Assembly (NCBI GenBank): GCA_026874595.1
Contig: CM049317.1
Location: 30,004,901-30,068,900 of the forward strand
DNA length: 64,000 nucleotides
Origin: Sipunculus nudus
Taxonomy: Eukaryota; Annelida; Sipuncula; Golfingiida; Sipunculidae
Direction of reading: 5' to 3'
Below the pieces are notes generated by a model, which searched no databases, was not told the origin of the DNA, and worked only from the letters and a program-made list of their open reading frames with translations. Below, one piece after another: positions 10,192-53,748 of the stretch (positions within the stretch are counted from its first letter, which is position 1; each line of letters begins with the position of its first letter). Position numbers and translations under genes: made by a program.

Positions 10192-10589
10192 TCGTTAAAC
10201 CATGGCATAAAATAGAGAAAGACAGAAATATTATTGTTTATCTTTTATTTTGTAGGAAAGTTCATTTTGGATTATGAATCATGGTAGCATGATAATTGAA
10301 ATATGATGAATGATAAAAAAGACAGAAATATCAAATTCGATTCAATATTTCTAGGAAATCGCCCCTTTTGATAAGGTAGGCTAAACTTCCCATATATTTT
10401 TTTAATATGAACCACTGATTCATGGTACATAATTTAGAAGGATATAACTATCAGTATGAATAGTATTTTTACTATTACAATTTACTTACTTTAAAAAAAA
10501 ATAGTTTATCACAGCAAATATGACAATTTTGAATTTCACCATGCATGGATATTCTGCAGAGGGACACCGGGACATCCGGAGATATGTGT

Positions 10590-11170: not shown

Positions 11171-11429
11171 ATTAAACAAATTCCAAGTAGTTAAAAAATT
11201 CTCCGCAACTAGATATTTCTTGGCACCACAGGTGCTATAGTATACCCAGACAATTAACCCCCCCCCCTTCCCCTTTAAGAAAATGCCCCCCATCTTCAGC
11301 AGCATATTCTGACACTTGGCAGGCGAATATGGTTTCTTCCATCTATCAACTTGAGAAACAATATTTCCCAAAAAATATAGGGGCCAATACGGTGAAGCAC
11401 TCTTGGGAAAAAGGGATTAATTTATACTT

Positions 11430-12571: not shown

Positions 12572-12735
12572 TCAGAATCAGTAATGAACAAGCGCAGGTG
12601 AGACGTGTAGAGAACAAAAAAAATTATCTGTACATTTCTCAACTTATAATGGGTCCTGATGTTCTATTTAAAGTATTATGTTTTTCTATACTGGATCTTC
12701 AGAGCTATAGGTCATCCATAGGTGATGGCTAATTT
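12386..12735 (+). repeat. Dispersed repeat with (CT)n core
   Basis: The block is 'aagcgcaggtgagacgtgtagagaa' plus 'gggtcctgatgtt' around a pure (CT)n tract at 12,515-12,568. It recurs in reverse complement at about 24,450-24,780, where the core reads (GA)n. The shared flanks show that the microsatellite is carried inside a larger duplicated block. Confidence 0.75.
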
Positions 12736-12817
12736 CTGAAAATATTTTTATTAATTTTTGACCTACAATGGTCCTTAGCAAATTGATATAACCGAATTTA
12801 TCCCACAGATGTTGTAT

Positions 12818-13268
12818 ATATGAGTGGTTCTTCCCTCAGGTATCGTATATATGTGTGGTTCCTCCCTCAGGTGTCGTATATATGCGTGGTTCTTTCCTCA
12901 GGTGTCGTATATATGCTTGGTTCTTCCCTCAGGTATCGTATATATGTGTGGTTCCTCCCTCAGGTGTCGTATATATGCATGGTTCTTCCCTCAGGTATCG
13001 TATATATGTGTGGTTCCTCCCTCAGGTGTCGTATATATACGTGGTTCTTCCCTCAAGTGTCGTATATATGCGAAGTTCTTCACTCAAGTGTCGTGTATAT
13101 GCGTGGTTCTTTCCTCAGGTGTCGTATATATGCGAAGTTCTTCACTCAAGTGTCGTGTATATGCGTGGTTTTTTCCTCAGGTGTCGTATATATGCTTGGT
13201 TCTTCCTTCAGATGTCATATATATGTGTGGTTCTTCCCTCAGATGTCGATATATGCCTGGTTATTCCC
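12818..13268 (+). repeat. 31-bp minisatellite
   Basis: About 14 copies of CGTATATATGTGTGGTTCCT + CCCTCAGGTGT. The unit length is not a multiple of three, so the open frames cycle through all three frames and translate to the same peptides. Each unit contains 'ccctcag|gtgt', which resembles both a 3' and a 5' splice site, but no gene surrounds it. Confidence 0.85.
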
Positions 13269-13312
13269 TCAGTTATTACCTATATCCTATAGGTGGAGAT
13301 ATTTGTTTTTGG

Positions 13313-13364
<52 letters not shown>
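13313..13364. repeat. (ATT)n microsatellite
   Basis: About 17 perfect ATT triplets directly downstream of the 31-bp minisatellite. Confidence 0.95.
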
Positions 13365-14947: not shown

Positions 14948-17900
14948 ATGGATCTTCGCTTGCTGACAGTATTGGCTGTTATTTGTCTGTATCTGGGGTA
15001 TTGCGAGGGACAAATTCAGCCAGCACGTATTCACCAGACTTACCAGGGGTCTGATCTGAAAGTATCATCTTTTAACATCCGAATATTCGGGCAGGATAAA
15101 ATGAAGGATCCCAGGGTTGTGGAGATACTCGTCAAGGTGAGATCTATCGGGTAGGATGTTAGCCTACATTGTTTCTGCAGTGTTTGTATACCCACTACGT
15201 AAACACTACATACCCACTACGTAACCACTACGTCACCACTACGTAATAAATACGTAACCACTACATAACAACTACATAACCACTACGTAACCACTACATT
15301 ACCACTACGTAAACACTACGTAACCACTACGTAAACACTACGTAATCACTACATAACCACTGCTTTATGATCTTTTGTTTTACAGCCTCCTGCAAAAACC
15401 ATTGCCGCATACTAGCCACTGTCTAATGGTTATGAAAAAGCAAGCAGAAAACCAGTGTGGATTTGTCCCTATTTACATTCTTCATAATATTTAGTAAAAG
15501 TGTATTTATTAGTTTACTTGTCAAAGTCCTTACAAAATGCTTCATATTTGTGTTTTATAAATCCATGTGGTGTTTACATTGTTCTGTATCAGATCATACA
15601 GCGATATGATATCATCTTCATCCAAGAGATTAGAGATATCAAAGGGACAGCGATCCATGACTTGTTGAACCAAGTGAACAGGTCATACATTTATATGATG
15701 TTTTTAATCGTTTTTCAAGCAAAAAATAATTCGAACATTAAATGTTAAATTCAGTTTTTTAAGCGTTTATCTATAGAGACCGTTTCCGGTACCTAGATTT
15801 ATGTGTTCATTAAGAAAACAATAACCGTTCATTTGATTTCCGTCAGCCAACAAACGGCAAAGTCCGTTGCACTTAAGCTAAAAATATCGTTAAAAAAATC
15901 ATAAAATATTCATTTTCACCCAGAAACTTTGAGAGCCACTTAGTCATTGCTATATCTTACTTATCATGATGTGCCAATAAATTGACAATAAAGTGCATCA
16001 TTTAGAAAAAAAACATTCTATCAGATTCGTCAATTTCACGTGGGGGCGTAAACAAACTAAAATGTATGTGTAGAGGGAACAAATACATTGAGCTGCTGAT
16101 TGGCTGGCAAATGGCGCTAGGACTATTTTGGAATCTATTATTGTGACTTTCATTAGGAAGTCTTTAGAGCTAGAGCACTGCATATCGTGATTAGCTGAGC
16201 ATTAGTAAGGTACTATTTTAATGTCGGTTTATTTTAATACAATAATGCTGCTGTAAAGACGCTACATGTCATTTTTCCCCTGTCCCTAGTTTCACAAGTG
16301 TCATTTTAAAATATATATTGACCTTGCCAGTAATGTAAATTTAAAATTACCCATTGTAGTGCATCGCCGAATAGCAAGTTTAGACTGATTGTGAGTATAC
16401 GTCTGGGAAAGTCAGTATCGCAGGAACAGTACGCATTTTTCTACAGGTAGTATTATTTCTTTTATTGTTTCTCTGATATTTTTTGGCATTGTCATTTATA
16501 CGATAACCAATCTACGTCATACAAATTCGTTATGGCAGTTCAAAAAAGGGTGTCCTGTACATAAGTTATTTACATATCTATAATCTCTGTTGATCTTTTC
16601 GGTTAACTATCATTAAATATGCAAAAAACAATGACACGGATCATGACTGGTAGTCAACATTACAGGTCTTGAGCTTACATAAGAATTAGGTTTGCTTGCA
16701 TGTGCAGTGGGGAATCATGTCGCAAAGTTCTATTAATCTCATGACCCTGGATCAAATAGAGAATTAATAATTTGGCTTGCTTTTGTTGGCTCTAGCCATT
16801 TTGCCAGGTGGTATTAAAAAACACCATTGTTTGTTTTTTGTTATATGTTTAGCATGATGCAAAACAAAAGGGACAGTATTAGCCAATCTGTGGCCAATTT
16901 TAACCGAAGACATAGTGTCCAAATGCTTGTTCGGAACTGCTTGGAGGATTAATTTTTGCATCCGTGAGAGGAGTTTTGGATCAAGATATACACAATCACC
17001 CATTTCCTTTGCCTTTTTAACTGAAAAAACGACAGACCCTCAGGTAAAAAAGGTTTCCAAGACAGGCCTAGACTTCAAGATAAACGAACACACTCACCTG
17101 ACCATCATATTGTAGATCCACAGGCTCAAGTACATAAAAAAAGCAGATCACAGCGACATGGGTGTGTCAAGTGTTTTTTTTTTAATTTATTGCCATTTCC
17201 CACCCTTCCCAATGTTTCGTAGCAGTACCTACGCAACCCTGCGTGCTTACAGACAAATGAACAACCAAGTGTGCGAACAAAGTAACCTACAGACTATTGA
17301 AAATACTATCATAAAATTATATCATCGTGTGGCGCACTCTGTCAAGTATATCTATAACTAAATAGCCATTGATACATAACACACAACTCTGCTGAAGTTA
17401 TGGTTCACATGCGCTACCCTCGATGCGTCGCTGTTTAAAAGAAAGTATGCATCTGTTTGATTTTGCCTTTATGCTATAATGAGGTGAATACCAACTGGTT
17501 GACCTATTTATAATTAACGATACTGGAGCAATTCGGGTATCCTCTGTGATCACTCCTCAGAAATCCATTTTGCCTTGTATCCTACGGGATCATTTTCCTA
17601 ATTTTTGCATAAATCTTGAGTAAATCTTTGACGTTAATTCGCGAATGGTGATAGCAGCACAGGGTGCAGTCGGCCCATATCAACTCGGCACACAGAGTAC
17701 CCATCCCGCACAAACCCGGTCGAAATCTGTCCGAACTCAAGATTGAGTTAAATGCTATAGTAACATATTAGTATAGAAATAGCAAATAAACTGAGAATGG
17801 GAACTGGTATGCAAGTAAACCATACAAAATGTCTTTATACAATTTGTAGGGAGAATAAAATGTCTGTAAGAAGAACGTGGCAGAGCAAAGGGGACTTCGA

Positions 17901-20582
17901 AAGACCACCGTTCGCTGCTCGATTCACAACAAGTAGGTCTCCATGGGTTTCCTATTATGCAAAGTACTATTAATTACTGATATATAAATTAATAGAAAAT
18001 ACTCACTTAGGAAAAGGTGTGGCGAACAGGCCCTAGCACAGTAGTTAGGGCGCATTGCTTTTATATTTAAAAAGAAATCACTTATGACATATAATCACCA
18101 AACAGACAACTCCAACTGTAAGCCAGACCTAAACTTTAAAATAAATAAGGAAGAATGTTTTGTATTGAAGGCAAAACATAAAGAGAAGATGCCGATAGAT
18201 AGTTGAATAAATACTAACCGTGACAAACCGACTCAGTAGGCAATGATAATTTGGCTGGTAAGCCTACTTAAGTTGTGATACAAGTAATATCGAGGAATGC
18301 AATGAATTGGTCTTCCATCATGTTGCATTCATGTTGTTGTAAACAGCCTACAATCTTAACATTATGCTACGAATGATGCATTAATGCAAGAGAATACATA
18401 TGAACTCACAACCGAAACTGAAACCCCGTATCTATGGTAAAGAGTCATTTACCGTATCGCGTACGAATTGGCTGCACCGAGTAACCCATGCGAGGCATGC
18501 TTGTGTTCACGCGGTCAGATATTCAACAAACATGCGGAGGGATTTACCAATATGCTGAGTTAGAACGGATTTTTTCTCGATCATGTTTGGTGTTGTTAGA
18601 AAGGACACTAAAAATGCAGACGGTTATGTCAGTTGACAGTGTATCTGTAGGCCATGAGGCGTTGTCAGGAATGTAGAAATATTTGCATTCTCATGTGGCT
18701 TTTAAATTCGCTCCTCAGTTCTAGTTGTAAAGGCACTCTGGCGGGCCAGTAATCTGGTCGTGATGTCAGAGGGCCGATATGGTGCTAAAAATATAATAAA
18801 TATTTACAATTGCCAAGCGATCACAGGAAGGCTACAATATAAGAAAAAGAAATAAACAATAAAAAAACTGTAATCCTTGCCCTCTGGGGGACCTACGAAA
18901 GTTAATAAAACATATTAATGCAGAAATAAACTGTTTAAGAAAATCCATCCACATTGTCATTATTTGTAGGTGAGCAGATGAATCAACACCTCACGTTTAT
19001 GTAACAATACTGCTAGATCATTTGAATATTCAGTTAATTCTATTTTATATTTAATTTAGACGCTGGATCTGTCTGGTTTCTTGGTATCCACACTAAACCA
19101 AGTGAGGCGCCCAAAGAGATAGACCAGCTGGTCGACGCTTATACCCAGCTAGTGAATTTCGCTGGGGAAGAGGTACAGTAAACCCCACTAAGCCGACATT
19201 TTCTTATATTTAAGGTTTTAGAAAAGGTATGGTTAATCCCCGATAAACGACGTCTTATGTATCAGGAGTTTTGAAAGTCTGCATTTATTAAATATACATA
19301 TATATGTGTATCAGTGCACCTTTAAACCGTGTTAGGCATGGAGAATGTGTGACGTCAGTTGTGTCAGGTATTGGGGGAAAACGGTAGCACCGGATATAAA
19401 TATTCAGGAATCGTATGGTAAATATGAATAATAAATCATATAAACGTTAAATTGAGCAAGCTTGTTGAAATAATGGTGCTTAGGGATATACATGTATTTT
19501 AAAACTCATTGACTATGCTTTATACAGGACACACTCCTCGGTGGAGATTTCAACGCTGGCTGTAGGTACGTGACGTCACAGGCCTGGCGTCGCATCCGGC
19601 TTCGCACCGACAAAAGATTCCAATGGGTAGTCGGAGATGACACGGTCACCACCGTCTCCAGCCCTGGGTGTCCTTATGACAGGTGACTGGGCGACTCACG
19701 TGCCATCTAACGTAGTTAAATAAGTTTCATTTTATATTCGCCAATGGATTGAGATTAATTCCAACCAACTTAACAAAGGTTTCTTTGTTTTTCTTTTATA
19801 AAACACTAGTTTTAAAAAGGTTGTCTCACATATTTTGAATGATGTATTTGAACGTGGGTCTTGCTTCAGTTTATTAATTTTTACGGTTATTATTATATTT
19901 AGTGTTTCGTAAACCTGTATCCATAAATTTAACAGCCGATGCTGCCGTCTTTTGCATATACTTGCTATTTTTACTGCCATTGTTAAGCTGGTTTAAATTT
20001 AATCTGTTATTTCCCGGTATTTGACAGGTTTGTCCTTGCCGGACGGAACCTTCAGGCCCTTTACATAAAGGGAACTGCTGGTCCGTTCAACTTCAAAGAA
20101 TCTTACAAACTAGATCAGACTATGGTAAGTTAAACACATTCACGTAAACATGCAAAGTGACACTTCGACATTAAGGCCACCAAAGGGAACTTGATATATT
20201 AATGGTCGCATTTTTTATGCTGTCGTCAATGCCCGTTCTGATATAAAGAGCAAAAAAAATTGTGACCGTGAAAAAGTGGTACTTATTGTGAGTTGGTCGC
20301 TCAACCGAAGTGGTCGTTAGGCAGGAATTTACTGTATATTTATATCGCACACTTATATCAAAGTCTATATTCTTTCCCGTAGTCATCATTTTGGATGATA
20401 CTGGTACTTTCACACTACTTAACCGTGTTCATTTTTTTCAGGCCTTGAAAGTCAGCGACCATTACCCTATTGAGATGCGACTTCACGTCCCCAACTCCTC
20501 AAAGTCTTCAAGTTGCAAATCTACGGAAACCGTGATTGGTTTTGGTGTTGCTGCCTTCTATATCTTATTTGGGCTCAATTAA
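14948..20582 (+). CDS. DNase I-family nuclease C2 with GPI-anchor-like tail (317 aa)
   Basis: Exons: 14,948-15,136, 15,593-15,681, 16,360-16,446, 17,850-17,932, 19,060-19,172, 19,528-19,682, 20,028-20,124 and 20,442-20,582. All introns are GT-AG and the joined frame is open. Residues 1-21 are a signal peptide (LLTVLAVICLYLGYCEG). Catalytic and binding residues by alignment to vertebrate DNase I are E75 and R77 (QEIRD), E115, H160 (GIHTKP), D194 and N196 (GGDFNAGC), D225, and D277-H278 (SDHYP). C199 and C235 fit the conserved disulfide; the second vertebrate cysteine pair is absent. After residue 285 a Ser/Lys stretch (about 290-298) is followed by a hydrophobic C-terminus (about 302-316), the layout of a GPI-attachment signal; mammalian DNase1L1 is GPI-anchored. 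Expected activity is degrading extracellular DNA at the cell surface. A short transmembrane tail is the alternative. The start is fixed by the signal peptide and homologous starts in C3 and C4. Confidence 0.93.
15185..15363. repeat. Minisatellite of CACTACGTAA units in C2 intron 1
   Basis: About 18 copies of a roughly 10-bp unit, with ACGT/ACAT variation. C1 retains only two or three units at about 540-560, so the array expanded in C2. Confidence 0.85.
18300..18790 (+). repeat. Dispersed repeat copy in C2 intron 4
   Basis: It matches about 40,385-40,850 in C4 intron 1 along nearly its whole length: 'acgaatgatg', 'gtatcgcgtac', 'aatatgct.agtta' and 'agggccga' occur in the same order. No open frame is shared. 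It is probably an old interspersed element; ends were not resolved. Confidence 0.65.
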
Positions 20583-20768
20583 CAGAACTTACAGTGATGT
20601 TCAGTAAAAAACATGTGTTTGGCTAATCTTTTTTATCAATTTAATATTGTACGATATTTCGGATTATTTCTCCAGCTTCTCAGGTGGACATGCAAGTGGA
20701 GCCGTACTTATAGGATATTTACGGTAATAAAAGTCATAGTCTCACATCCTGTTAAATATTTTATATAC

Positions 20769-20770
<2 letters not shown>

Positions 20771-20847
<77 letters not shown>

Positions 20848-20848
20848 A
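20771..20848. repeat. (AT)n then (GT)n microsatellite after C2
   Basis: Alternating AT to about 20,827, followed by GT repeats. It lies inside the 3' flank shared with C1. Confidence 0.9.
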
Positions 20849-20859
20849 GTGTTTGCATG

Positions 20860-21390
20860 TGCATATCTGTAAGTGTGTGTAACACGCCAAATGGGACATA
20901 ATTTGCTGGCCAAAATGCTTCCTCTGATGCGATACACGAAGACCATTGTTGTCAAATGGGGACTGATGGTTAATACGAGTATAATTATTGGTGCCGGGTC
21001 TCGGGTTTTGCCCCTGGGATCAAGCCCCTTTCTCCCCTCTACCCCCCCCCCCCCCACACACACACTCCCTCTCAACGCACCATAACATTTTCAGACTAAA
21101 CTTAGTACATATTATCAATGTAGGCAAAATTAATGTACCGTTTTACCTTTCTTATTTATAATTTTATCAGAACAGTAAAATTACATTTGTACTGGATGGC
21201 ATACAATGTTAACATTATGCACGGGATAAAGAAGGTGACAAACACGTGATGCGGAAAATCATGTGGTATATTTTAACATTTCCACTTGCATATAAAAAAA
21301 TCACGTAACAAAAAGGGACTAATTTGTTTACCTGAAAGATGTTTATATTTTTTACCCTTAATCATCTTATTTCAAGACATATTCTTCCAT
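20860..21390 (+). repeat. 3' flank of C2, homologous to the C1 3' flank
   Basis: It aligns to 8,440-8,990 in the same orientation and order. A poly-C tract near 21,042-21,056 interrupts it. It supports a segmental duplication of gene plus about 1 kb downstream. Confidence 0.7.
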
Positions 21391-22389
21391 TTTGTGGGAG
21401 GAGAGAGGAAAACCACACACTCCCACTCATGCGCTAAGCCAGAGCTCCCCTCTACCCCCCCCCCCCCCAACACATTCTTTTATATTAATGGGTCCGAACA
21501 ATAAATTTTTAAACCTTTTCAAATAGGACCCAATATACAGAACTCTTGTTTCTCATACCATGTTGAAACTGTATGTTTACTTTTTTTTACTTTACTCCTT
21601 TATTGTTACTGGGGCACCATCCATCCATTTTCTGCTGCCCTGCACCATTCACTGCCCTATACAGTTTGACGCCACATAATGGACGGACCTGACCGGGGAA
21701 TAGGTCATTCAAACCTACTGTCTGTTCCACAGTAGGGTGCCCCTTGAAATTTGGCAATATTCCCATTAAATTACAGATTTATTCCAAATGGTATGTTGCA
21801 ATAATGAAGAAGGCCTAATGAAGAAGGTTAAACGAACTTAAAGCAATACGTTGCAAAATATGTAAGTAATGCAACAAAATCAACAGCTGAGTAAACAGTA
21901 CTTTTTACAACAAATCAGCTCTATTAAGTGAGGTCAAGGTCATGGGTCACATGCTGAAACAACTACACTTAAAAGCTTCTGATTGGTTGTTTAGTGTAAC
22001 AAATATTTAATAAAATTTAACTATCAGATTGAGGCTGCCAACCTACGACAGACGCGATGTCATTTGGCTCCAAGTTTGAGAAGAACCAGAAGCATGCCAA
22101 CATAAATGTTTGCTTTTGTTATGAAGTTTTACTCCTCATAGTAGGACATCGGTCCCTCTTCAGCTTTAGTGTCATCGTGTGTGATAATATTTAAGTTTTA
22201 AAAGATAATCGCCCAATATTACCTGTAATAGGGTGTTGAGACCCCCCCCCCCCCCTCCGCCTCTAAGAACATGTGCCTGCCCCCGGTTCACGCAATATAA
22301 CTGTACCGTTTCTTCCTGTACCGTATGTCACCTTTTTGTCTGATCCATGAGAAGTTCTTGTACTATTTACACACACACACACACATATA
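21391..22389. other. Intergenic, no gene seen
   Basis: AT-rich DNA with C-tracts (21,458-21,468 and 22,242-22,254) and an (AC)n/(AT)n tract at 22,371-22,395. Open frames are short and have no recognisable motif. Confidence 0.4.
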
Positions 22390-24215
22390 TATATAGGTCC
22401 ATGAAAAATCTCCTTGGAAACCTGGATTTAGGTCTCTGTCACCCATATTGTCCGAGCTATGAGGCTAAGAAGTACCTCCCAGAATATTGAAAAATTTGAT
22501 ACAAAAGCTCAAATATCTAAACAACTAATGCATTAATTAATTGATCACCATGATTCTTTGCATGATTATTGATAATGGAGGGTTTCATCAGTTTCTGCAG
22601 ACTGGTGGCGCCACCAGTATTTTTTTCGATTTTTTACGATTTTTTTCTCTATTTTTGAGACCTCAAAAGATGCCGTCATCTGTAAACAAGACACAAATAG
22701 TAACCGCTGGACCTGGAATCTTCTCACTTTACATCAAGAGAGGTCAATGAAAAGTCTCCATGAAAACCTAGAATTAGGTCTCTGTTACCCATATTCCTCA
22801 AGCTATGGGGCTCCGAAGTACCCCCCCCCCCCCATAATGATGAAAATTTGAAACAAAAGCTCAAGTAACTGAACAACTTATGCATTGATCACAATAATTC
22901 TTTGCATGGTTATTGATCATGTAGAGTTTCATCTGTTTATGCAGACTGGTGGCGCCACCTGTATTTTTTTAATTTTTTACGACTTTTTTCTCTATTTTAG
23001 ATAATAAAAATTGGCGACATCTGTAAACCGTAAACCGCTGGACCTGGAATCTTCTTTCTTTACATTCAGATAGGTCCATGAAATGTCTTCTTGAAAACCT
23101 GAATTAGGTCTCTCTTACCCATATTTTTTCCAGTTATGGGGCTCCAAAGTATCCCCCCCCCCCGAATAATGAAAAATTTGATACAAAAGCTCAAGTATCT
23201 GAACAACTAAAGCATTGATCATCATGATTCTTTTCATGGGTATTAATCATATAGTGTTACCTCAGTTTCTGCAGACTGGTGGTGCCACCTGTATTTTTTT
23301 CCGATTTTTCACAATTTTTTTTCTATATTTTGAGACCTTAAAAGATGACGTCATCTGTTAACTGGGCACAAATCATAACCGCTGGACCTGGAATCTTCTC
23401 ACTTGATATCCAAGGAGGTCCATGAAAAATTTCCTAACAAACTTAGTATTAGGTCTGTGTTACCCATATTCTTCCAGCTATGGGGCTCCGAAGTACCCCC
23501 CAGAATAATGAAAAATTTGATACAAAAGCTCAAGTATCTGAACAACTAATGCATTGATCACCATGATTCTTTCCATGGTTATTGATCAAGGGGTGTTACT
23601 TCAGTTTTTTCCCGACTGGTGGCGCCACCTATATTTTTTTATTTTTTACAATTTTTTACTCTATTTTTGAGACCTTAAAAGATGCCGTCATCTGATAATA
23701 GGGTACAAATCGTAATGACTAGACCTAGAATCTTCTTTCTTGACATGCTGGGAGACCCATGAAAAGTCTCCTTGGAAACCTGAATTAGATCTCTGTCACA
23801 AATATTGTCCGAGCTATGAGGCTCAGAAAGACCCCCAGAACAACTGAAAATTTGATACCAAAGTAGAGCACAAATCACGACCACGGGGCCCAGAATCTTC
23901 TAACTTTACATCCTGAGAGTTCCTCAAAAGTTCTCCCCAGAAACCTGAAATTTGGCCACAGTGACCAATATCCTCGGAGTTTTGGGATATGTTTGAGCAC
24001 CCCAGAAATAATGCAAAATACACACAAATTGCCAGATTCCTCATGAAAGGCTGGTTGGATTGTCATCAGATTTGTTGTGCTTATTGGTCTTGATAAACTT
24101 AAGCTAATATACATGAACAATGATGCCACCTATCTTAATTGGTTATCTGTGCAAGGACATTTTATCAACATGTCAGTCTGCTGAGGGTCATGACCCACGG
24201 GTCACTTGTTATCAG
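22390..24215 (+). repeat. Tandem-repeat element, five units of about 340 bp
   Basis: Units begin at about 22,396, 22,740, 23,071, 23,415 and 23,752 with AGGTCCATGAAAARTCTCC, and the first four carry CAGACTGGTGGCGCCACC. The right end ('atggattgtcatca', 'gatgccacct', 'gcaaggacat', 'catgaccca.gggtcacttgtt') is the same as at 29,490-29,640, so this is one element type with a variable number of internal units (five here, about three at 28.7 kb). Confidence 0.8.
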
Positions 24216-24449
24216 CAATTTCTCAAACAAAGATACAATTTCATAAGCACGGAAAAATGGAAAATTTAATAAAAGTCAATTTTCTTTTCGTTGATTCCTT
24301 TTATTACCAGGTTATATCAATCTGCTAAGGACCATTGTGCGTCAAAAATTAAAAAGAAAATTAAGAAAATAGCTATCACCTATGGATCACCTAGCTCCGG
24401 AGCCCTGTATCCGTCAGGCTGTATCCGACTTCCGCTAAAGTCACACTGT

Positions 24450-24587
24450 ATCCAAAAAGACCGGTATAGAAAACTGTATTTTATATTTAACATCAGGACC
24501 CATTAAAAGTTGGAAAATGTACAGAGAATTCAAGTTTTTTATTTTGTTGTTCTCTACACGTCTCACCTGCGCCAGCTCATTACCGAT

Positions 24588-24634
<47 letters not shown>

Positions 24635-24780
24635 ACGCACAGCAACTACAAGAGTTATATTGAGATGACATCCCTAATTTTAACATATATTTATATCAGA
24701 TAATCTTCAGATATAGAATCATCATAGGTTAAAGATCAAATATTTGACTTTTTAGATTATTATCCGGGTGGAATGCCATC
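24450..24780 (-). repeat. Inverted copy of the (CT)n-core repeat
   Basis: Reverse complement of the block at 12,386-12,735, with (GA)n at 24,589-24,633. On the minus strand it follows the other fragments of the collapsed DNase unit (25,490 down to 24,950) in the order expected of the C1 downstream flank. Confidence 0.75.
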
Positions 24781-24949
24781 ATCAAGGACGTTCACTCTAC
24801 AAATTATTTAAATTTACGAATAACTTTCAAGGGGAATGCATAGATGCCAGTTTGATCGATCCTTTGTCGGCACCAAAACCTGTCTAGTTTATGTCCAGAT
24901 GGACATGTCTATCTCGTGCGATACCGTTACTACGAGGAATGTTATTACT

Positions 24950-25081
24950 GCAAATAGTTTCCATTTTCATTTTACCATGATTATATTGCAAAATGTACTT
25001 TCCTACAAAATATAAATAAATACATATATTTCTGTCTTTCTCTATTATATGCCATGGTTCATTGATTAATATATACGTATA

Positions 25082-25120
<39 letters not shown>

Positions 25121-25225
25121 TACAACAACTAAAATCATGCTTCCACTATTGATTAATCTTATACTGCAACTAGATTTAACCCTAACACAAAATATGAAAT
25201 TTGGATAAAATTAACGTCAATGTCG
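24950..25225 (-). repeat. Inverted copy of C1 downstream-flank sequence
   Basis: Read on the minus strand, 25,225-25,110 matches 8,940-9,085 ('ttttatccaaatttt', 'ctagttgcagtataaga'). Then 25,080-24,960 matches 10,190-10,290 ('ccatggcat', 'agagaaagacagaaatat', 'tttgtaggaaagt'). The fragments are collinear with the + strand source but much closer together. Confidence 0.65.
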
Positions 25226-25445
25226 AATGATTTATTTTAATAAGCAGATTTGTGTATTTTAATATAATGTAGCATATATTAATACAACTTAGAGTTACAC
25301 ATGGGATTCATATATCAACATTATTAACTTTAACATAGAGCGTTTTTAGATTTATGTTTACAACTGTATCCTAGATGATTTATAGATTAACGCTTTGAAT
25401 ATATTACTTAATTAATCTTATGTTAAGGTGATAACATCTCTCAGA

Positions 25446-25490
25446 TTACAGACATAGCCCAGCCAAAACTGTCAGCAAGCAAAGATCCAT
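25446..25490 (-). pseudogene. Truncated DNase exon 1 on the minus strand
   Basis: From the ATG at 25,490-25,488 the minus strand reads MDLCLLTVLAGLCL then TAA (25,448-25,446), against MDLRLLTFLACLCL in C3. Homology ends at this point, so only the promoter and the first 14 codons of the signal peptide survive. Upstream (higher coordinates) it keeps the TATA element at 25,529-25,537 and the rest of the C3-type promoter. It is a dead remnant, oriented head-to-head with C3. Confidence 0.8.
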
Positions 25491-25885
25491 TTTGGCTAAG
25501 GACTGTATATTGACAGGATGTAAGCGTGTTATATATATCCCGTTAACTTCATGGTGTAGGTTTTAATACTCGTGATTTTCCCCGCGTGCTAAATACAGCT
25601 CATGTAAAAAAACGGGAAAATTTCCGGTTTGTTTGTTTACAGGTCATGTGACTGCCCTGTCCAGATAGAATACTTCCCGGGTGCAATCTTTCACCAGATA
25701 GAGGCCGATATAATGTACCCAATGGTCCGGCCAGATTGGAGTTTCTTACAATATCAAACACACCTACACTGGCTACACGCACACACAAGCACCTACACAT
25801 ATTCACACACGTTTACACACATATCTATATAGATATAGATATATTTATATCAGGGACGGGGTAATAGTAATAGTAACAGGAAAGA
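25446..25885 (-). repeat. Left arm of head-to-head inverted repeat (DNase promoter)
   Basis: The reverse complement aligns with 27,440-27,895. Shared stretches include 'ttactattactatt', 'ccctgatataaat', 'gtgaaagattgcacccggg', 'cacatgacctgtaaacaaac', 'tacacca.gaagttaacggg' and the exon 1 start. Two inverted copies of one DNase promoter face each other across about 1.55 kb. Confidence 0.8.
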
Positions 25886-26660
25886 AGATTTAGCCTGTGG
25901 TGACACTGACTTAGTCCTGGCCTTGGTGGGTGGTTACACAGACTCAGTCCTGGCCTGGGAGGGTAGTTACACAGACTCAGTCCTGGCCTGGGAGGGTGGT
26001 GACTCAGACTCAATCCTGGCCTTGGAGGGTGGTGACACAGACTCAGTCCTGGCCTTGGAGGGTGGTGACTCAGACTCAGTCTGGCCTTGGAGGGTGGTTT
26101 CACAGATTCAGTCTGGCCTTGGAAGGTGTTGACTCAGACTCAGTCCTAGCCTCGCACGGTGGTGACACAGACTTAGTCCTGGCCTGGGAGGGTGGTTACA
26201 CAGACTCAGTCCTGGCCTGGGAGGGTGGTGACTCAGACTCAGTCCTGGCCTTGGAGGGTGGTGACACAGACTCAGTCTTGGCCTTGGAGGGTGGTTTCAC
26301 AGATTCAGTCTGGCCTTGGAGGGTGTTGACTCAGACTCAGTCCTAGCCTTGGAGATTGTTAACACAGACTCAGTCCTGGCCTTTGAGGTTCCGAAACGGA
26401 CTCAGTCCAGGCCTTGGAGATTGTTAACACAGACTCAGTCCTGGCCTTTGAGGTTCCGAAACGGACTCAGTCCAGGCCTTGGAGATTGTTAACACAGACT
26501 CAGTCCTGGCCTTTGAGGTTCTGAAACGGACTCAGTCCAGGCCTTGGAGATTGTTAACACAGACTCAGTCCTGGCCTTTGAGGTTCTGAAACGGACTCAG
26601 TCCAGGCCTTGGAGATTGTTAACACAGACTCAGTCCTGAGACTCACAGAATCAGTCCTGG
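25886..26660 (+). repeat. 33-bp minisatellite with a 65-bp higher-order unit
   Basis: Basic unit CAGACTCAGTCCTGGCCTTG + GAGGGTGGTGACA. From about 26,345 to 26,640 a two-unit block of about 65 bp ('ttggagattgttaacacaga', 'tttgaggttccgaaacg') is repeated four to five times almost unchanged, which points to recent amplification. It lies between the two inverted promoter arms. The open frames are a by-product of the repeat. Confidence 0.85.
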
Positions 26661-27439
26661 ACTCGGACGGTGGTGACATAGATGTCATGTTAAACAAATA
26701 ATTTTTTTTTTTTAATTATAGAAAATACAATGAACACATAATACCTCTAGCATGTCGCAACTGAATTCAACCTTTTCCTGCTCAACCGCATACACAATTT
26801 GATAATTTCGTGTCCAGCACCTTATAATTTATTAAATCTTGTTGAATCAGTCCATTCATTTATCAGTTCATTCATTTCACCTAATGATTATTAGATTTTT
26901 AAACATTCAACAAGATTTCCTTAAAGCCATGGCAATAAGACTGCAATAACGGTTTTTACAAACATGGGCTTTTTGACAGTGTGTGTGGCACCAATGATTA
27001 ACTCATCAAAGGTTATAATTTTCAGACAGTTAACCCGTGAACAATAGCTACACTGCAACAGTATCACTGATAAGTCTCATCTGACAATAACTCCCTAATT
27101 AGTATACTAACTAAACTGTCAAGGCCTGGTTACTGAGCCTAAAAACAGGCCCAGGGTTATATCTTATTGGTTATTACTTATAACTTCAAGGGAAAACTTA
27201 TGCCCAGTGCCCACTGGACCATGTTAGCAGACAGCATGAACTAATCACACTAAAACTTGTCAGCTTCTGCTGTATCAATGTTATCAGACAAGCACTCCTT
27301 ATTAAGCTGTTTAAGCAAGGGTTGTGATTGAAAAGTTAAAGTTATTATTCTCTCACTAAGGGGGCCGATTACTATTCATATTAGCCATACAGGTTAAAAA
27401 TTCATTTCTGTTACTATTACTATTTAATATTACAATTAC
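26661..27439. other. Spacer of the inverted repeat, no gene seen
   Basis: AT-rich, apparently unique DNA between the minisatellite and the right promoter arm. No open frame or splice pattern is recognisable. Confidence 0.4.
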
Positions 27440-27895
27440 TTTGAAAACCTGTTATTTTCTATTTCTATTACTATTACATATTATTATTACCCCATCCCTG
27501 ATATAAATACATATCTATATCTATCTATATCTATATGGATATGTGTGTGTATACATGTGTGTATATATGTGTAGGTGTGTGTGATGTTGTAAGAAACTCA
27601 AATCTGGCCGGATCATTGGGTACATTATATCGGCCTTTATCTGGTGAAAGATTGCACCCGGGAATTATTTTATCTGGACAGGGCGGTCACATGACCTGTA
27701 AACAAACAAGCCGGTAATTTTCCCGTGTTTTAACATGAGCTGTATTTAGCACTCGGAGAAAATCACGAGTGTTAAAACCTACACCAGGAAGTTAACGGGA
27801 TATATATAACACGCTCACATCGTGTCAATACACAGTCCTAACCAAAAATGGATCTTCGCTTGCTGACATTTTTGGCTTGTCTGTGCCTGTATCTT
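27440..27895 (+). repeat. Right arm of head-to-head inverted repeat (C3 promoter)
   Basis: Partner of 25,446-25,885. It contains the C3 upstream region and runs into the first exon, which continues intact here but breaks off in the other arm. Confidence 0.8.
27801..27809 (+). promoter_or_regulatory. TATA box of C3
   Basis: TATATATAA lies 38 bases before the C3 ATG, so transcription starting about 30 bases downstream would leave a very short 5' UTR. The inverted arm keeps it (25,529-25,537). C4 has TATAAA at a similar spacing, and C2 has lost the match. Confidence 0.6.
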
Positions 27896-28199
27896 GGGTA
27901 TTGCGAGGGACACATTCAGCCAGCCCGTATTCACCAGACTTACCAGGGGTCTGATCTGAAAGTATCATCTTTTAACATCCAAGTATTTGGGCAGCACAAA
28001 ATGAAGGATCCCAAAGTGGTGGAGATACTCGTCAAGGTGAGATCTATAGGGTGACAGGTTACACTCCTTCCGATGTGCCCTCACTACATTGGTTCTTGAA
28101 CTCATTTCACTTTATCACTGTCATAGCAGCATATGTTAAGAATGGCAAACCTGGAAGTTGACACAGGGCCAAAACTCTAAGTAATATTAGCTCGGTATG

Positions 28200-28257
<58 letters not shown>

Positions 28258-31200
28258 GGCAGCCTGCAATTGAATCATCTTATGCTTTACATATGCTTAA
28301 CTAATGATGAATGGATACCCCCCCCCCCCCATCCTCTCCACCCGCCCCTCCCCCCGCATATCAAACTTGAAATACTAAGGCTCTATAATTCCAGGTTATT
28401 CATATTAAGTGTTTTAGCCTCCGGCAATAACTCTTGCCGCATACTTGTCACTGTCCAATTATTATTTTAAAAAGGAAAATCAGTGTGGTTTTGTCCCTAT
28501 CCATACGTGTGAAATCCTGAATGAAATGTTAATTTTATTTATAGTGTAAGGTTTGCGATTCCGGGGTTTTTGGTGAACCGCTGACCAAATATCCAACAAC
28601 CACAGCAATTTTTAGCTCAGCTGACTGTAAGTCATCTGAGCTATAGCGATAACCCTTTGTCCTTCGTCTGTCCGGCCGTACGGCCTTCCGGCCGTCTGTC
28701 CGTTAACAGTGCACAAATCGTAACCGCTTGACCCAGAATCTTCTTACTTGACATCCAGGGAGGTCCATAAAAATTCTCCTTGAAAACCTGGAATTAGGTC
28801 TCTGTTACTCATATTCTTTGAGCTATGGGGCTCAGAAGTACCCCCCAGATTAATGGAAAATTTGATACAAAAGCTCAAGTATCTAAACAACTAATGCATT
28901 GATCACCATGATTGTTTGTATAGATATTGATCATGGAGTGTTTCATCAGTGTCTGCAGACTGATGGCGCTACCTGTATTTTTTTTTTTATTTTTTTACGA
29001 TTTTATTTTCTATTTTTGAGACCTTAAAAGATGCGGTCATCTGTTAAAAGTGCACAAATCATTACAACTGGACCTAGAATCTTCTCTCTTGATATGCAGG
29101 GTGGTCCTTGAAAAGTCTCCCCCCATCATAATTTAAAAATTGATACCACAAATTATAAACATTGGACCTGGAATCTTCTAACCTAAAATCCAGGGAGGTC
29201 CATGAAAAAGTCTTCCTAGAAACCTGAAATTAGGTCTCTGTTACGCATATTCTCCAAGCTATGGGGCTTATAAGCACCCCCGGAATAATTGAAAATTTAA
29301 TACCAAAGCAGGGCACAAATCATAACCATTTGACCTTAATCTTCTTATTTGACATCCTGAGAGTTCCTCAAAAGTTCTCCTCAGAAACTTGAATTGAGGT
29401 CACTGTGACCTATACTATCTGAGTTACAGGCCATGTTTGAGTACCTTAGAAATAATGCAAAATACACCCAAATTGCCAGATTCCTCAGGAAGAGCTGGAT
29501 GGATTGTCATCAAATTTGATGTGCTTCAGCTAATATGCATGAACTATGATGCCACCTACATTACCTTAATTTGTTGCTGTGCAAGGACATATTGTCAACA
29601 TGCCAGTCAGCTGAGCGTCATGACCCATGGGTCACTTGTTAAGAGCTCAAATGCCTATATCTTTATTAATGTTTGTCCCATGAAATACATACGTTTTTTA
29701 CTCCTGTAAAAAACCGCAACATGACTCGCTTAAAAATCTTTAAAAATATTTTCTGACACACTCGCGCGCATATACCTAATAATACTCCGTAAACAATTTG
29801 TTGAGGGCTCGCTTATTTGAATATTTGAGGAAAGTCCTGATTAAATTTTGGCCCAACACAAAAGAAGCAGGGCGCCCTTGGTCTTACGCTCTTCATGCAG
29901 CGGTCATACACTACGGTCATCCCAGATCTCCTTTGCTTTAACCGCTGTTTTGTATAGCAAAATTCTCAGGGTTTGACCACCAGAGTTTGCAAAGGACTGA
30001 GAATTGTAATCAGGGGAATGAGACCCTGGTATCGCATTTTGCATCCAGCTCCAAATTTAAAAGCATGTGACACCCGCTCTCGTTGGTTTGATCAGGGTGT
30101 TTATATAAACTATGTAAGCTTCTTGGTCTGATTACAACAAGACACCCGCTCTCGTTGGTCTTATTACAACGAAACACCCGCTCTCGTTGGTCTGATTACA
30201 ACGAAACACCCGCACTCGTTGGTCTGATTACAACAAGACACCCGCACTCGTTGGTCTGATTACAACGAGACACCCGCACTCGTTGATCTGATTACACCGA
30301 GACACCCGCACTCGTTGGTCTAACTACACCGAGACAGCCGCTCTCGTTGGTCTGATTACACCTATACAACCGCTCTCGTTGGTCTGATTACACCGAGACA
30401 TCCGCTCTCGTTGGTCTGATTACAACGAGACATCCGCACTCGTTGGTCTGATTACACCAAGACATCCGCACTCGTTGGTCTGATTACAACAAGACACCCG
30501 CACTCGTTGGTCTGATTACAACAAGACACTCGCACTCGTTGGTCTGATTACACCGAGACGCCCGCACGCGTTGGTCTGATTACACCGAGACATCCGCACT
30601 CGTTGGTCTTACTACACCGAGACAGCCGCTCTCGTTGGTCTGATTACACCGATACAACCGCTGTCGTTGGTCTGATTACACCGAGACATCCGCACTCGTT
30701 GGTCTTACTACACCGAGACAGCCGCTCTCGTTGGTCTGATTACACCGATACAACCGCTCTCGTTGGCCTGATTACACCGAGTCATCCGCTCTAGGTGGCC
30801 TGATTACACCGATACAACCGCTCTCGTTGGTCTGATTACACAGAGACATCCACACTCGTTGGTCTTGCTACACCGGGACAGCCGCTCTCGTTGGTCTGAT
30901 TACATTGATACAACAGCTCTCGTTGGCCTGGTTACACCGAGACAGGCGCTCTCGTTGGCCTGATTACACCGAGACACCCGCACTCGTTGGTCTTACTACA
31001 CCGAGACAGCCGCTCTCGTTGGCCTGATTACACCTAGACACCCGCTCTCGTTGGTCTGATTACACCGAGACACCTAATTTCGTTGGCCTGATTACACCGA
31101 GACACCCGCTGTCGTTAGTCAGGCTAGACCAAGACACCCGCTCTCGTTGGCCTGATTACACCTAGACACCCGCTCTCGTTGGTCTGATTACACCGAAACA

Positions 31201-34200
31201 CCTGATTCTGTTCGCCTTATCACACCGAGACACCCGCTGTCGTTAGTCAGACTAGACCAAGACACCGGCTCTCGTTGGTTTGATTACATCGAGACACCCG
31301 CTCTCGTTGGTTCTTTGCTAAGTGATAAACCTGGTGGTGGGACCCAAAGAATCTCGCTGTACAAAGCAGCGGTTAAAACCAATGAGAGTTGGGACGACTG
31401 CAGTGTATAGCCGCACCCGGGCCTTCATAGGCGGTCCTTACATTGGGTGGGGGGGGGGGGGGGGGGGAGGGGATTAATTAAATGAATGATCAAACTGACC
31501 TCTGCTGCTGTAATGTACATGGTTTGTCAATTTACCGTGGCCATTATGTAGAATAATTTATCCCCCACCCCCACATAAACATCGTATATCCTTTGTCATT
31601 TTATCAACACGTTTTCCTCGATGTTAAGGTTTAACCGAACCGAATCTAAAGCTAACAACCAAAGGGAAAATTTGTGAAACACTCTACTGCAAACGTGTGT
31701 GTTAATAAAGTTGCTGTTTACTTTGTTATTTAACAGATTATCCAGCGATATGACATCGTTTTCATCCAGGAGATAAGAGATAAGAGCGGGAAGGCGATTG
31801 AAGAATTACTGAACCAAGTCAACAGGTCAATTATATATTATATATGATATATTTTATAGTTTTTCAAGAGAAAATACATGGAAATAAGCGTTTTCTTTTA
31901 ATTGTTTTAAGTGTTTCTATACTGAGACTGCTTCCGGTACCCAGATTTGTGTGTTATGGATGAAAAGTATACCCCTTCAATTGATTTCCGTCAGTCATGT
32001 TAAAGAACGAAAGGATAACGTCGGCAATGTTAGTTACACTTACTGCAGACTGTTCATTTGTTTCGACTAGTGCGGTCTTCCGAAGTTCGCTAGACATTTC
32101 CAAATAATCAGTACCATAGGAAATGTAAAGTGAGAATGTGAAATATATTGGATTGAAACTACAAAAAAAAAATAAATAATAATAATAATAATAACAATGA
32201 TAAAATTACTATTAAAAATAATAATAGTATAATTATATTATATATTACTAATGAATAAATTTAAATGCCAGCAGACCAAGCTTACACCTCATGGACTTCT
32301 TATCCCTTGGGCACATAGGTTATATATATATATATATTAAATTCTTAGAAATTAATTTTAATGAAGTATTACAATGTTAATTTGTTAATTTTCAAATCCT
32401 TGTGCACAGTTTTGCATTATTTCTTAAAATGACGAATGGGAATTTTGCAGGTAAAGTTTATTTGATAATGTTAATTAGTTTTTCTTTGTTTTACCCTATT
32501 CAAGTGCATCGCCGAATGACAAGTTCAAAATGAAAGTGAGTGAACGTCTCGGCAGGACGGTGTCGAAAGAACAGTACGCCTTCTTCTACAGGTAGTATTT
32601 TTTTGTATTTTTGTTTTAACAAGAGGGCATAGTCAGTGTCAGTGTACGCACCTCACGCAGCGGTTATACACTGCAGACGTCCAAGACATCCTTTTGTGTA
32701 TCCGTTGTTTTTTATAGCAAGGTTTTCCGGGTTCAAACACCTGGGTGAGCACAGAGCAAAGACTTTTAATCAGACCAATGAGAGTTTAGCATCGCAAATG
32801 TGCTTCAACCATAATTTTCAACACGCGACACCCGCTCTCGTCCTTTGATTACACCGAGCACAGCCTCACTTTGGTCTGATTCTTGGCTCTATGCCAGAAC
32901 GAACGGGTGTTGTGGAACCTTACGCCAGATGGCGAGCACATATATCTCGGCCCGATATCAAGTTATATCGGTAAGGCTTGTGTATAATCTCAGTCAGCAT
33001 ACCTGCATTGAGTTTAGGCGCTTAAAGAGCCAAGATTATCTTGACAGAATTTGCTACCATGGATATGTCATTACTTGATAAAAGCTTTAAGCATCTGTTT
33101 TAATACTCAGTTGATAAGTAATAGTTAAATATGGAAATAGAACTCAAATGAGAATGGGAAATGGGCAGTGCAGGTTAACTATATGCAGAATGTTTTTATC
33201 TCGTTTGTAGGGAGCAGAAATTGTCTGTAAGCCAAACTTGGCAGAGTAAAGGAGACTTCGAAAGACCACCGTTTGCCGCTCGGTTCACGTCAAGTACGTT
33301 ACCATGGCAATCAATCACTCGAAGTGCTTCTAATATATGAATTCTCAATAAAATCTTACATAATAACAGAGGAAACGTGTGACATAGTAGTTATTAGCTT
33401 GATGCTCGGTGTTGTTTATATAATATAGTTAACAAGAAAGTATTTTAAAAGTCAAGGCCAAGATAATGGGGATTTTAGCTCGTCTTCTCAATTTCTGATA
33501 TACATGTATTAGCATTATAAGTTAAAATGTCACACCGACTCTAGCTCAAACGAGTCATCGAATGTCTTTATTCGATTAGCCTCAAACCAGCATTTACAAA
33601 TTATCTCTCTTGGACAGAAATATCAGAAAAAATTCAAATGTACAAATAATTCAACACCTCTCGGTTATGTATAAGTCCTTATAGACCATGTGACCTAGAG
33701 TATTCAGTTATTACCATTGTATATTTATTTTTAGGTGCAGGATCCTTCTGGTTTCTTGGTATCCACACTAAACCAGCTGAGGCACCAGCAGAGATAGACC
33801 GGCTGGTCGACGCTTATAATCAGCTTGTACAGAAATATGGCGAAAAGGTACAGTAAACCCCGCTAAAACAACAATGTCTGATGAGCAAAATCTGTAAAGT
33901 AAAGTAACAGTTAACCCATATAAACGATACTGTCCAATAAGTAATATTTTGTAAAGAAAAGGTAGCTTAAAGGCCACTAAACGACAAGGTCTAATGAGTA
34001 AAGTCTGCTTGGAAAAGGTAGGGTAAGCCCGCTACAATGTCTAAGGATTCAAGTCTGCTTGGAAAAGAACAGTAAACTCGGCTAAACGACAAATTTAATG
34101 AGTAAATTTTGTTTGGAAAAGTAAGGTGAAACCCCGCTAAAATGATAATGTGAGATATATACATAAACGATACAGTAATCTCCGCAAATATGACAATATT

Positions 34201-35324
34201 TTAATATTTACCGCCTGTAATCCGCGACAGAGAAGATATTTCAGACTATCAATTATGGTAGCATAGTGGTCGTGTAAACCGGTCATATAAAGACATTTTA
34301 TGATCGTCAAAAAGGCCCTGCTAACTAGATGTCAACGGCAAATGTGGCCGTGTTTCCGGAATGTGTAAATATTAAGATCGAGGCACCTTAAAACTGCTTT
34401 CCATGTTAGTGAAGACTGTGTGATGTTGGTTGTGTCAGGTAATTAGGACATTGGCCTTTTAAGATAAAAATATTTATGCATCGAACGATTAATATTTACA
34501 AAAATCATATTTATGTTAAAGGATAAGTGAGTTAGGTAAATAATGACTTTTTAGACACATGTATCTTGAAAACTTGATAACAATATTTTAAACAGGACAT
34601 TCTCCTCGGCGGAGATTTCAACGCGGGCTGCCAGTACGTGACGTCACAAGAATGGAGTCATATTCGGCTACGCCAAGACAAAAGGTTCAAATGGGTAATC
34701 GGCGATGACACGGTCACCACCGTCGCTGGCCCTGGGTGTCCTTATGACAGGTGACGAGGCGACTATGGCGCCATCTAAAGAACCTAAACATTGATAATAT
34801 AATTGATACCTAAACTGATATTTAAATTTTTATTTATTAAGCTCTGTGATCTAGTTTTATCGAGGTAAATTTTTTGGGGTCTTTTAATTAAACACCTGGT
34901 GCTGCCATCTTGTGGAGATACTTGATACCATTAACTTCACAATCAATAAAAAAGGAAAACTAAATTTAAATCATGATTATATAATTAAAATATATCATTG
35001 TATATTTTCCGGTACGTGCACAGGTTTGTACTTGCCGGGCAGAATCTTCAGTCCAGTTATGTAAGGGGAAGCGCCGGTCCGTTCAACTTCAAAGAAGCTT
35101 ATAAATTAGATTTGGCTGAGGTAGGTTAAACGTATAACATTTTATCTTTAACGCAACCTTGCAGTAATAATCTTTTTGTGTAACAGTTCGTAATTCACTG
35201 TCTATAAGATTTATCGTATCCCATAAGACTCTATATTTTTAAAGATATACATTCATATTCCCTTACTTTTTTTCAGGCTGAGAAAGTCAGTGATCATTTT
35301 CCTATTGAGCTGCGACTCCGCTGA
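27848..35324 (+). CDS. Secreted DNase I-family nuclease C3 (286 aa)
   Basis: Exons: 27,848-28,036, 31,737-31,825, 32,505-32,591, 33,211-33,293, 33,735-33,847, 34,596-34,750, 35,024-35,120 and 35,277-35,324. All introns are GT-AG and the joined frame is open. Residues 1-21 form a signal peptide. E75 and R77 (QEIRD), E115 (SKEQY), H160, D194 and N196 (GGDFNAGC), D225 and D277-H278 are all present, as are C199 and C235, so an active secreted DNase is expected. The protein stops at IELRLR, 15 residues into exon 8, and therefore lacks the C2 tail. Tail-like nucleotide sequence survives in the 3' UTR. Intron 1 is 3.7 kb because two repeat elements sit in it. A TATA box is placed 38 bases upstream of the start. 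Confidence 0.93.
28203..28255. repeat. (AT)n microsatellite in C3 intron 1
   Basis: About 53 bp of alternating AT, followed by C-rich tracts at 28,319-28,330 and 28,348-28,354. Confidence 0.95.
28610..29645 (+). mobile_element. Element with AGCTCAGCTGACTG end and GGCGCC-type tandem units
   Basis: The left end has AGCTCAGCTGACTGTAAGTC followed by a run of GTCCG/GGCCGT repeats. The body has about three 340-bp units of the 22.4-kb array type, and the right end is shared with 24,045-24,215. The right end contains 'gtcagctgag', matching the left-end 'ctcagctgac' in inverse, so short terminal inverted repeats are plausible. I associate the left-end text with repeats of mollusc genomes. No protein is encoded. 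It lies in C3 intron 1. Confidence 0.6.
29885..31440. mobile_element. TIR element with an internally amplified 31-bp satellite
   Basis: Left end (29,890-29,980: 'catgcagcggtcatacac', 'tttaaccgctgttttgtatagc') recurs in reverse complement at 31,360-31,430 ('tgtacaaagcagcggttaaa', 'gtgtatagccg'). Between them about 38 copies of a 31-bp unit, CTCGTTGGTCTGATTACACC + GAGACACCCGC, fill 30,120-31,310. Short relatives without the amplified core occur at 32,640-32,900, 50,575-50,760 and 52,495-52,660, each with one or two 'cgttggtctgatt' motifs. This identifies the satellite as an expansion of the element's own interior. Confidence 0.7.
32640..32905 (+). mobile_element. Short relative of the 29.9-kb TIR element in C3 intron 3
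   Basis: It contains 'cacgcagcggttatacactg', 'gttttttatagcaaggtt', 'cgacacccgctctcgt' and 'tttggtctgattcttg' in the same order as the larger element, but only about two degenerate core units. Confidence 0.55.
33841..34165 (+). repeat. Tandem repeat spanning the exon 5 splice donor of C3
   Basis: Six degenerate units of about 50-57 bp. The first unit is the real junction (GCGAAAAG|GTACAGTAAACCCCGCTA), and later ones read GGAAAAGGTAGGGTAAGCCC, GGAAAAGAACAGTAAACTC and so on. C1 and C2 have two or three such units at the same position (4,213-4,380 and 19,165-19,345). Confidence 0.6.
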
Positions 35325-35385
35325 ATAGTCTTCAAGTTGTAAACTCATGGAAACCGTTATTAACATTGCTGATCAAAACATATTT
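35325..35385 (+). other. Tail-homologous sequence in the C3 3' UTR
   Basis: Directly after the C3 TGA, AGTCTTCAAGTTG and then GGAAACCGT match the C2 sequence that encodes the Ser-rich part and start of the hydrophobic tail. Relative to C2 the segment between RL and this block is 11 bases shorter, putting it out of frame with the C3 stop. Read in the C2-like frame it stays open for about 20 codons. Confidence 0.7.
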
Positions 35386-35779
35386 TAACAAAATTAAAAA
35401 AACAGCACGTAGGAATATTTAGCAAACAATGTGTAATTGGCAAAACGTTTACGGTAATCCAGTCACAGAGAACGTGATTTCATCAGAATTTATTTAAGAT
35501 TTTATTTTACGACATTCCGTCATTATTTTACGACATTGCATTATACACTCCAGCATCTGCTATTGGCATGAATGCGGGTGGAGGTTTTCACTTCTTACAG
35601 ATATTTACGGTAACATCATTCATATGCACCATAAAGCATGGTTTCCAGCCTGCCTTGCACTGTGCAAGGTAGGCCCAAGGCAGGTATAGCGCAAAGCAGG
35701 CTTTGAACAGTGCTAATACACCATCAAGTTGTATATTAATTCGGCCATTCGGCTGTTATATTAATTAAACTGACCAGAA

Positions 35780-53717: not shown

Positions 53718-53748
53718 CGCCGCCGCCGCCGCCGCCGCCGCCGCCGCG
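53718..53748. repeat. (CGC)n microsatellite
   Basis: About ten CGC triplets in otherwise AT-rich DNA, just before the 280-bp array. Confidence 0.9.

Follow-up and report, generated by a model that had tools for sequence, protein, structure and literature searches.

A possible membrane anchor derived from 3' untranslated DNA in a tandem array of DNase I genes of Sipunculus nudus

Sipunculus nudus is a sipunculan annelid whose genome carries a tandem array of deoxyribonuclease I (DNase I) genes, part of which lies in the 64,000 nucleotides analyzed here (assembly GCA_026874595.1, contig 12, positions 30004901-30068900; this whole stretch is termed the window). The copies, named C1 to C8, share a conserved exon structure, and the array extends beyond the window on both sides, where further members include C6b (a lone exon 8), C7, and C8. 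Two of the copies, C1 and C2, encode a serine-rich and hydrophobic C-terminal tail, laid out like the signal for a glycosylphosphatidylinositol (GPI) anchor. In a third copy, C3, the homologous DNA lies beyond the stop codon. The subject of this report is the origin of that tail, which probably arose from a former 3' untranslated region (UTR). Gene models were built for C2, C3, and C4, and for exons 2-8 of C1. The located array members are listed below in window numbering.

801-7650, plus strand: C1, a tail-bearing DNase I copy, exons 2-8; exon 1 falls outside the window on its left side, at -290 to -141
840-842, plus strand: in-frame TGA in exon 2 of C1; a sense codon stands at this place in C2 and C3
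7504-7650, plus strand: exon 8 of C1, with tail codons at 7546-7647 and the stop at 7648-7650
14948-20582, plus strand: C2, a tail-bearing DNase I copy of 8 exons and 317 amino acids
20442-20582, plus strand: exon 8 of C2, with tail codons at 20484-20579 and the stop at 20580-20582
27848-35324, plus strand: C3, a DNase I copy without the tail, 8 exons and 286 amino acids
35322-35324, plus strand: stop codon TGA of C3, at the position common to untailed copies
35325-35388, plus strand: 3' sequence of C3 homologous to the tail-coding DNA of C1 and C2
40136-49053, plus strand: C4, a DNase I copy without the tail, 8 exons and 297 amino acids, stop TAA at 49051-49053
52759-57174, plus strand: C5, a decayed copy in which only exons 5-8 were found, with stops in exons 5 and 6
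57094-57174, plus strand: exon 8 of C5, ending 17 residues beyond the position of the SDHYP proline
61579-64000, plus strand: start of C6, an untailed copy that continues to 70268, outside the window
75808-75855, outside the window: C6b, a single additional exon 8 lying downstream of C6
96157-116438, outside the window, other strand: C8, an inverted and diverged copy

In general, the window is a tandem array of DNase I genes whose products are predicted to be secreted; the N-termini of C1-C4 are hydrophobic in the models. The C2 protein matched five distinct chains in the PDB, the best of them Deoxyribonuclease-1 (E 3.3e-60), with Deoxyribonuclease gamma at 3e-57, and Pfam PF03372 was detected in C2, C3, and C4. 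The catalytic and metal positions of DNase I, which we take to be N7, E39, E78, R111, H134, D168, N170, D212, D251, and H252, are intact in C1, C2, C3, C4, and C6, and also in X1, a locus on contig 1 (93554901-93569504); C7 and C8 have Asn at 251. X1 was the single other DNase I locus found when the genome (1.43 Gb in 153 contigs) was searched. A protein search with C2 gave 43 matches, 41 in the array and 2 on contig 1, and a search with X1 gave 26, 7 on contig 1 and 19 in the array; such searches score the best candidates only, so that these loci are those found and further ones are possible. The array copies branch together with X1 and apart from DNase1 and DNASE1L3 (support 100/99, and 99/97 in a second tree).

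The copies differ at their C-terminal ends. The C2 protein ends in SDHYPIEMRLHVPNSSKSSSCKSTETVIGFGVAAFYILFGLN, a Ser-rich linker followed by a hydrophobic tail, and the C1 protein in SDHYPIEMELQVPNTLYLMSSSSKSPETVIGFGVAAIYILFELN, again a Ser-rich stretch followed by a hydrophobic end. C3 ends in SDHFPIELRLR, with the stop directly after RLR, and C4 in SDHYPVELQVR, with the stop after QVR. The gene models thus bear out the initial annotation, which had described a tail in C1 and C2, a C3 stop after RLR, and a C4 stop at the aligned residue. Among the copies found, the tail is confined to C1 and C2. Counted from the codon after RL/EL to a GTCTTC common to the three copies, C3 has 6 bases, C2 has 17, and C1 has 23. 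C3 is therefore 11 bases shorter than C2, as had been claimed at the outset, and 17 shorter than C1, which places its tail-homologous DNA out of frame. Read in the frame of the tail, the C3 DNA gives SSSCKLMETVINIADQNIF and then a stop, with no hydrophobic stretch.

The added coding DNA of C1 and C2 is homologous to the DNA beyond the stop of their relative C3. When the 100 nucleotides after the C3 stop were compared with the C2 tail, the score was 23, reached in 0 of 5000 shuffles (maximum 17); the comparison with the C1 tail scored 19, again reached in 0 of 5000 (maximum 16). Chance resemblance was thereby ruled out. The homology continues in the flanks downstream of the tail, where 150 of 227 aligned bases are identical between C1 and C3 and 118 of 186 between C2 and C3. 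Of the three untailed 3' flanks that were compared with the tail (C3, C4, and C6), only that of C3 is homologous to it; the flank of C4 was matched as well by 2911 of 5000 shuffles, and that of C6 by 1140 of 5000. A DNA search of the whole genome with exon 8 of C2 and its flank returned two matches, C2 itself and C1; it missed C3 and so has little bearing on diverged copies.

The place of the stop codon bears on the direction of change. The stop follows the proline of the SDHYP motif by 6 residues in C3, C4, C6, C6b, and C8 and by 7 in C7; the distance is 17 residues in the decayed C5, and it reaches 37 in C2 and 39 in C1. The alignment with DNase I chains in the PDB ends one residue short of the chain end, which again gives 6 residues after the proline, and an Arg precedes the stop in C3, C4, and C6. 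Tail loss was simulated with modern C1 or C2 as the ancestor, and gene conversion was outside the scope of the simulation. Single deletions of 1-40 nucleotides put a stop at the +6 codon in 19 of 3155 losses from C1 and 0 of 3006 from C2. A random deletion combined with an insertion did so in 502 of 78952 (C1 start) and 125 of 79647 (C2 start), and point nonsense changes in 0 of 41 and 0 of 39, respectively; overall, the +6 stop was restored in 0 to 0.64% of simulated losses. Because its stop stands at the same +6 place as in the untailed copies and the PDB chains, and because that stop is so rarely restored, the C3 stop looks ancestral.

The opposite course is that the tail predates the split of C1, C2, and C3 and that C3 lost it by a small frameshifting deletion or rearrangement, its 3' UTR then being former coding DNA. 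In the tail frame, the C3 3' sequence indeed meets no stop before a TAA close to where the tail itself ends, and a short ACT/ACT match, read by eye, could have promoted a deletion from a sequence like that of C2. The scarcity of restored +6 stops and the Arg that C3 shares with C4 and C6 before the stop argue against such a loss, which we consider unlikely. An ancient tail lost many times is not favored, since the 3' flanks of C4 and C6 are also without tail similarity; no trace of a tail appeared in the frames read of C4, C6, C6b, C7, and C8. It could also be supposed that gene conversion by an untailed paralogue overwrote the end of C3 and so returned the old stop. The copies do stand in tandem, and the closest pair among them varies from exon to exon, possibly as traces of exchange. 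Yet exon 8 of C3, up to its stop, matches C2 at 35 of 45 positions and C1 at 33 of 45, with only 29 for C6 and 26 for C4, and the DNA beyond the C3 stop is of the C1/C2 type. Because C1/C2-type DNA lies on both sides of that stop, a conversion tract would have to be very short, and conversion is accordingly a very improbable source of the C3 end.

The branching order of the copies is consistent with a gain of the tail in the C1/C2 lineage. In a protein tree from which a coverage filter had removed the tail columns, C3 fell outside C1 plus C2 (support 92/95), with the untailed C7, C4, C6, C8, and X1 further out; on this best tree, a tail present before the split would take two events, as against one for a gain. 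Among 15 non-coding segments (14 intron ends and the 5' flank), C1 and C2 are the closest pair in 12. Stop position, loss simulation, and tree together favor the shorter, untailed form as ancestral, although the branching is not significant. Of the two options that the initial annotation had left open, a gain of the tail from 3' UTR is thus the one favored by the stop place and the simulated losses, and a loss from C3 is the less favored.

In the proposed sequence of events, the ancestral copies would have had their stop where C3, C4, C6, and C8 have it today, six residues past the SDHYP proline. In the C1/C2 lineage, a small change of the insertion type, located at the stop codon, would have removed or displaced it; relative to C3 today, the net gain is 11 bases in C2 and 17 in C1. 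Translation would then have run into the old 3' UTR, which in its new frame would have encoded a Ser-rich linker and about 15 hydrophobic residues at the protein end, the layout of a GPI signal. C3 would have retained the old end, its homologous DNA staying 3' UTR. The anchor of C1 and C2 would on this account have arisen de novo from former 3' UTR, with C3 keeping the untailed state, and we regard this as probable; the direction of change is inferred from the comparisons above.

The inserted bases themselves may offer a lead. Exon 8 of C1 contains an imperfect 29/31-base repeat, its best self-match, which was equalled in 2 of 1000 dinucleotide shuffles, and the extra stretch of C1 resembles the DNA just downstream (0 of 5000 shuffles, with end points chosen by eye). 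C2 gave no signal of a slipped copy in either test, 848 of 1000 dinucleotide shuffles being as good in one and 220 of 5000 in the other. Origin of the insertion as a slipped copy of adjoining downstream DNA is a lead only.

Whether the tail would act as an anchor was judged by simple GPI rules of our own, which look for small residues, a spacer, and at least 13 uncharged hydrophobic residues at the end. The C1 and C2 tails satisfy these rules, and the C3 DNA in the tail frame fails them. Of 70000 random starts in 250 kb of DNA from this region, 582 (0.8%) satisfy them, so that the layout is unusual but not impossible for chance read-on, as an origin de novo requires. In C2, the enzyme would be made as a secreted DNase I with its N-terminal signal, and the hydrophobic C-terminus would be exchanged for GPI at a predicted site, a small residue within the Ser-rich stretch. 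The C2 enzyme would then be held on the outer cell surface, and the products of C3, C4, and C6 are predicted to be released. The earlier statement that a change of a few bases turns a surface DNase into a released one is a reasonable reading of these sequences, surface attachment being predicted.

Several observations weigh against a gained and working anchor, the first of them concerning the tree. With the tails cut (LG+G4), support for C1 plus C2 in the protein tree drops to 81/79. In approximately unbiased (AU) tests of the arrangements of the trio, the p values were 0.85/0.24/0.14 for protein, so that the alternatives stand, 0.62/0.42/0.39 for codons, and 0.74/0.052/0.34 for first and second codon positions. 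The branching of C1, C2, and C3 is not significantly resolved, and arrangements that would require loss of the tail in C3 are unrejected. C2 and C3 are the closest pair in 3 of the 15 non-coding segments, one of which is the 3' end of intron 7, beside exon 8; the intron of C1 is longer there. By exon identity, the closest pair among the eight exons is C1-C3 in four (exons 2, 3, 5, and 6), C1-C2 in three, and C2-C3 in one, whereas most introns and the 5' flank favor C1-C2. This discord may reflect a fast-evolving C2, whose protein branch is the longest of the trio, plus perhaps some exchange. The loss simulation, for its part, starts from present-day C1 and C2 and leaves gene conversion uncovered.

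The remaining adverse points concern the tail itself. GPI attachment rests on home-made rules. The C1 and C2 tails are identical at 87 of 99 aligned bases, little more than the 3' flank with 162 of 189, and because of this, selection on the tail is not shown. The rates of nonsynonymous and synonymous change in the tail (dN 0.118, dS 0.259) come from 13 changes, 5 synonymous and 8 non-synonymous, which are too few. C1 carries a nonsense codon and may be dead; its exon 2 TGA may mark a pseudogene of recent origin, a polymorphism, or an error in the assembly, and no defect is apparent in its remaining exons or in the modeled splice sites. These points would suit a tail that is unselected read-on, its product retained or degraded, or C1 and C2 becoming pseudogenes, with no working anchor at all; the nonsense codon, the near equality of tail and flank, and the long C2 branch all agree with it. 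On the other side, C2 is intact over 8 exons with its catalytic residues kept, dN/dS of the enzyme body is 0.38 for C1-C2 and 0.25 for C2-C3, and the tail has a layout that few random starts share. The alignment of the C1 and C2 tails has a single gap, of 6 bases and in frame, and the following flank has 44 gap columns. Unselected read-on therefore seems to us rather unlikely, if less so than loss of the tail from C3.

Other features were noted in and around the array. A 323-base segment at 25447-25769 (minus strand) is an inverted copy, 91% complementary, of 27569-27891 (plus strand). The latter spans the sequence upstream of C3 together with 44 bases at the start of its exon 1, including the start codon; this copy of the C3 upstream region, 1.8 kb upstream on the opposite strand, could drive antisense transcription. 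In the decayed C5, the SDH-motif His is replaced, and in the diverged C8 the SDH-motif Asp is changed to Asn and the usual Cys pair is lost. In X1, a single fused exon corresponds to exons 5 and 6, and exon 8 reaches SETG and then a consensus donor, so that an additional C-terminal exon is possible; an open reading frame scan downstream found no convincing further exon, and a somatomedin-B-like cysteine pattern was not found. Four long minisatellites lie in or between the DNase copies, and the 18-base minisatellite at 10.5-11.3 kb maintains a 313-codon open frame on the minus strand.

10529-11265: minisatellite, unit of 18 bases
12708-13327: minisatellite, unit of 31 bases
29995-31300: minisatellite, unit of 32 bases
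44735-45406: minisatellite, unit of 28 bases

The nearest known parallel is vertebrate DNASE1L1 (DNase X), a member of the DNase I family whose C-terminus carries a hydrophobic GPI signal. According to PMC9208542, a tandem duplication of the untailed DNase1L1L gave rise to DNase1L1, and the GPI anchor of DNase1L1 was acquired in bony fishes; in some vertebrates the pair is still found in tandem, and the same source calls the anchor unique to DNase1L1. It also puts the minimal repertoire of molluscs and other invertebrates at one DNase1 gene and notes more than one in some basal chordates. In contrast to DNASE1L1, the tail described here is found in two copies of one array, its DNA has a homologous counterpart in the 3' UTR of a sister copy, and no copy outside C1 and C2 was found with it, so that its origin looks separate from that of DNASE1L1; the trees covered DNase1 and DNASE1L3.

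Other systems resemble single steps of the proposed origin. In yeast, 45 of 54 C-terminal additions from 3' UTR arose by frameshift and 9 by point changes (Andreatta et al. 2015, PMC4494051), so that there, too, a frame shift or stop loss pulls former 3' UTR into the protein. The yeast additions are short and lie between alleles and species, and a text search of that paper for GPI found no occurrence; here, what was added to a duplicated animal gene is predicted to be a membrane signal, and a neighboring copy keeps the untranslated form. In primate CEACAM genes, a stop inside an existing transmembrane segment creates a GPI signal (PMC5856374), and a few mutations again change the membrane fate of tandem paralogues; in the present case, the hydrophobic piece itself would come from untranslated DNA. 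T-rich non-genic DNA readily yields hydrophobic peptides and de novo membrane proteins, as stated in PMC7005711. The tail DNA of C1 and C2 is likewise T-rich, and differs from that case in being a new tail on an old enzyme rather than a new gene. In searches of an open-access library, with subscription journals mostly absent, no report of a GPI-anchored DNase I outside vertebrates or of a GPI signal derived from 3' UTR was found. The present case would combine the anchor gain of DNase1L1 with the 3' UTR-derived C-termini of yeast, as an anchor of independent and probably recent origin within a DNase array whose sister copy keeps the untranslated state. Taken as a whole, the proposal of a GPI anchor born from 3' UTR in a tandem array, possibly via a slipped copy, as a second independent surface DNase of animals, is tentative and in our estimate falls a little short of an even chance.

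A change in the location of an enzyme is usually inferred from distant relatives. In this array, the forms before and after the change would stand about 15 kb apart, with a net difference of 11 or 17 bases at the stop, and the untranslated homologue can still be recognized. If the proposed origin is true, the array would be a tractable case in which non-coding DNA gave rise to a localization signal, independently of but in parallel with vertebrate DNASE1L1, and surface-bound and released DNases may be a repeatedly useful pair for the handling of extracellular DNA.

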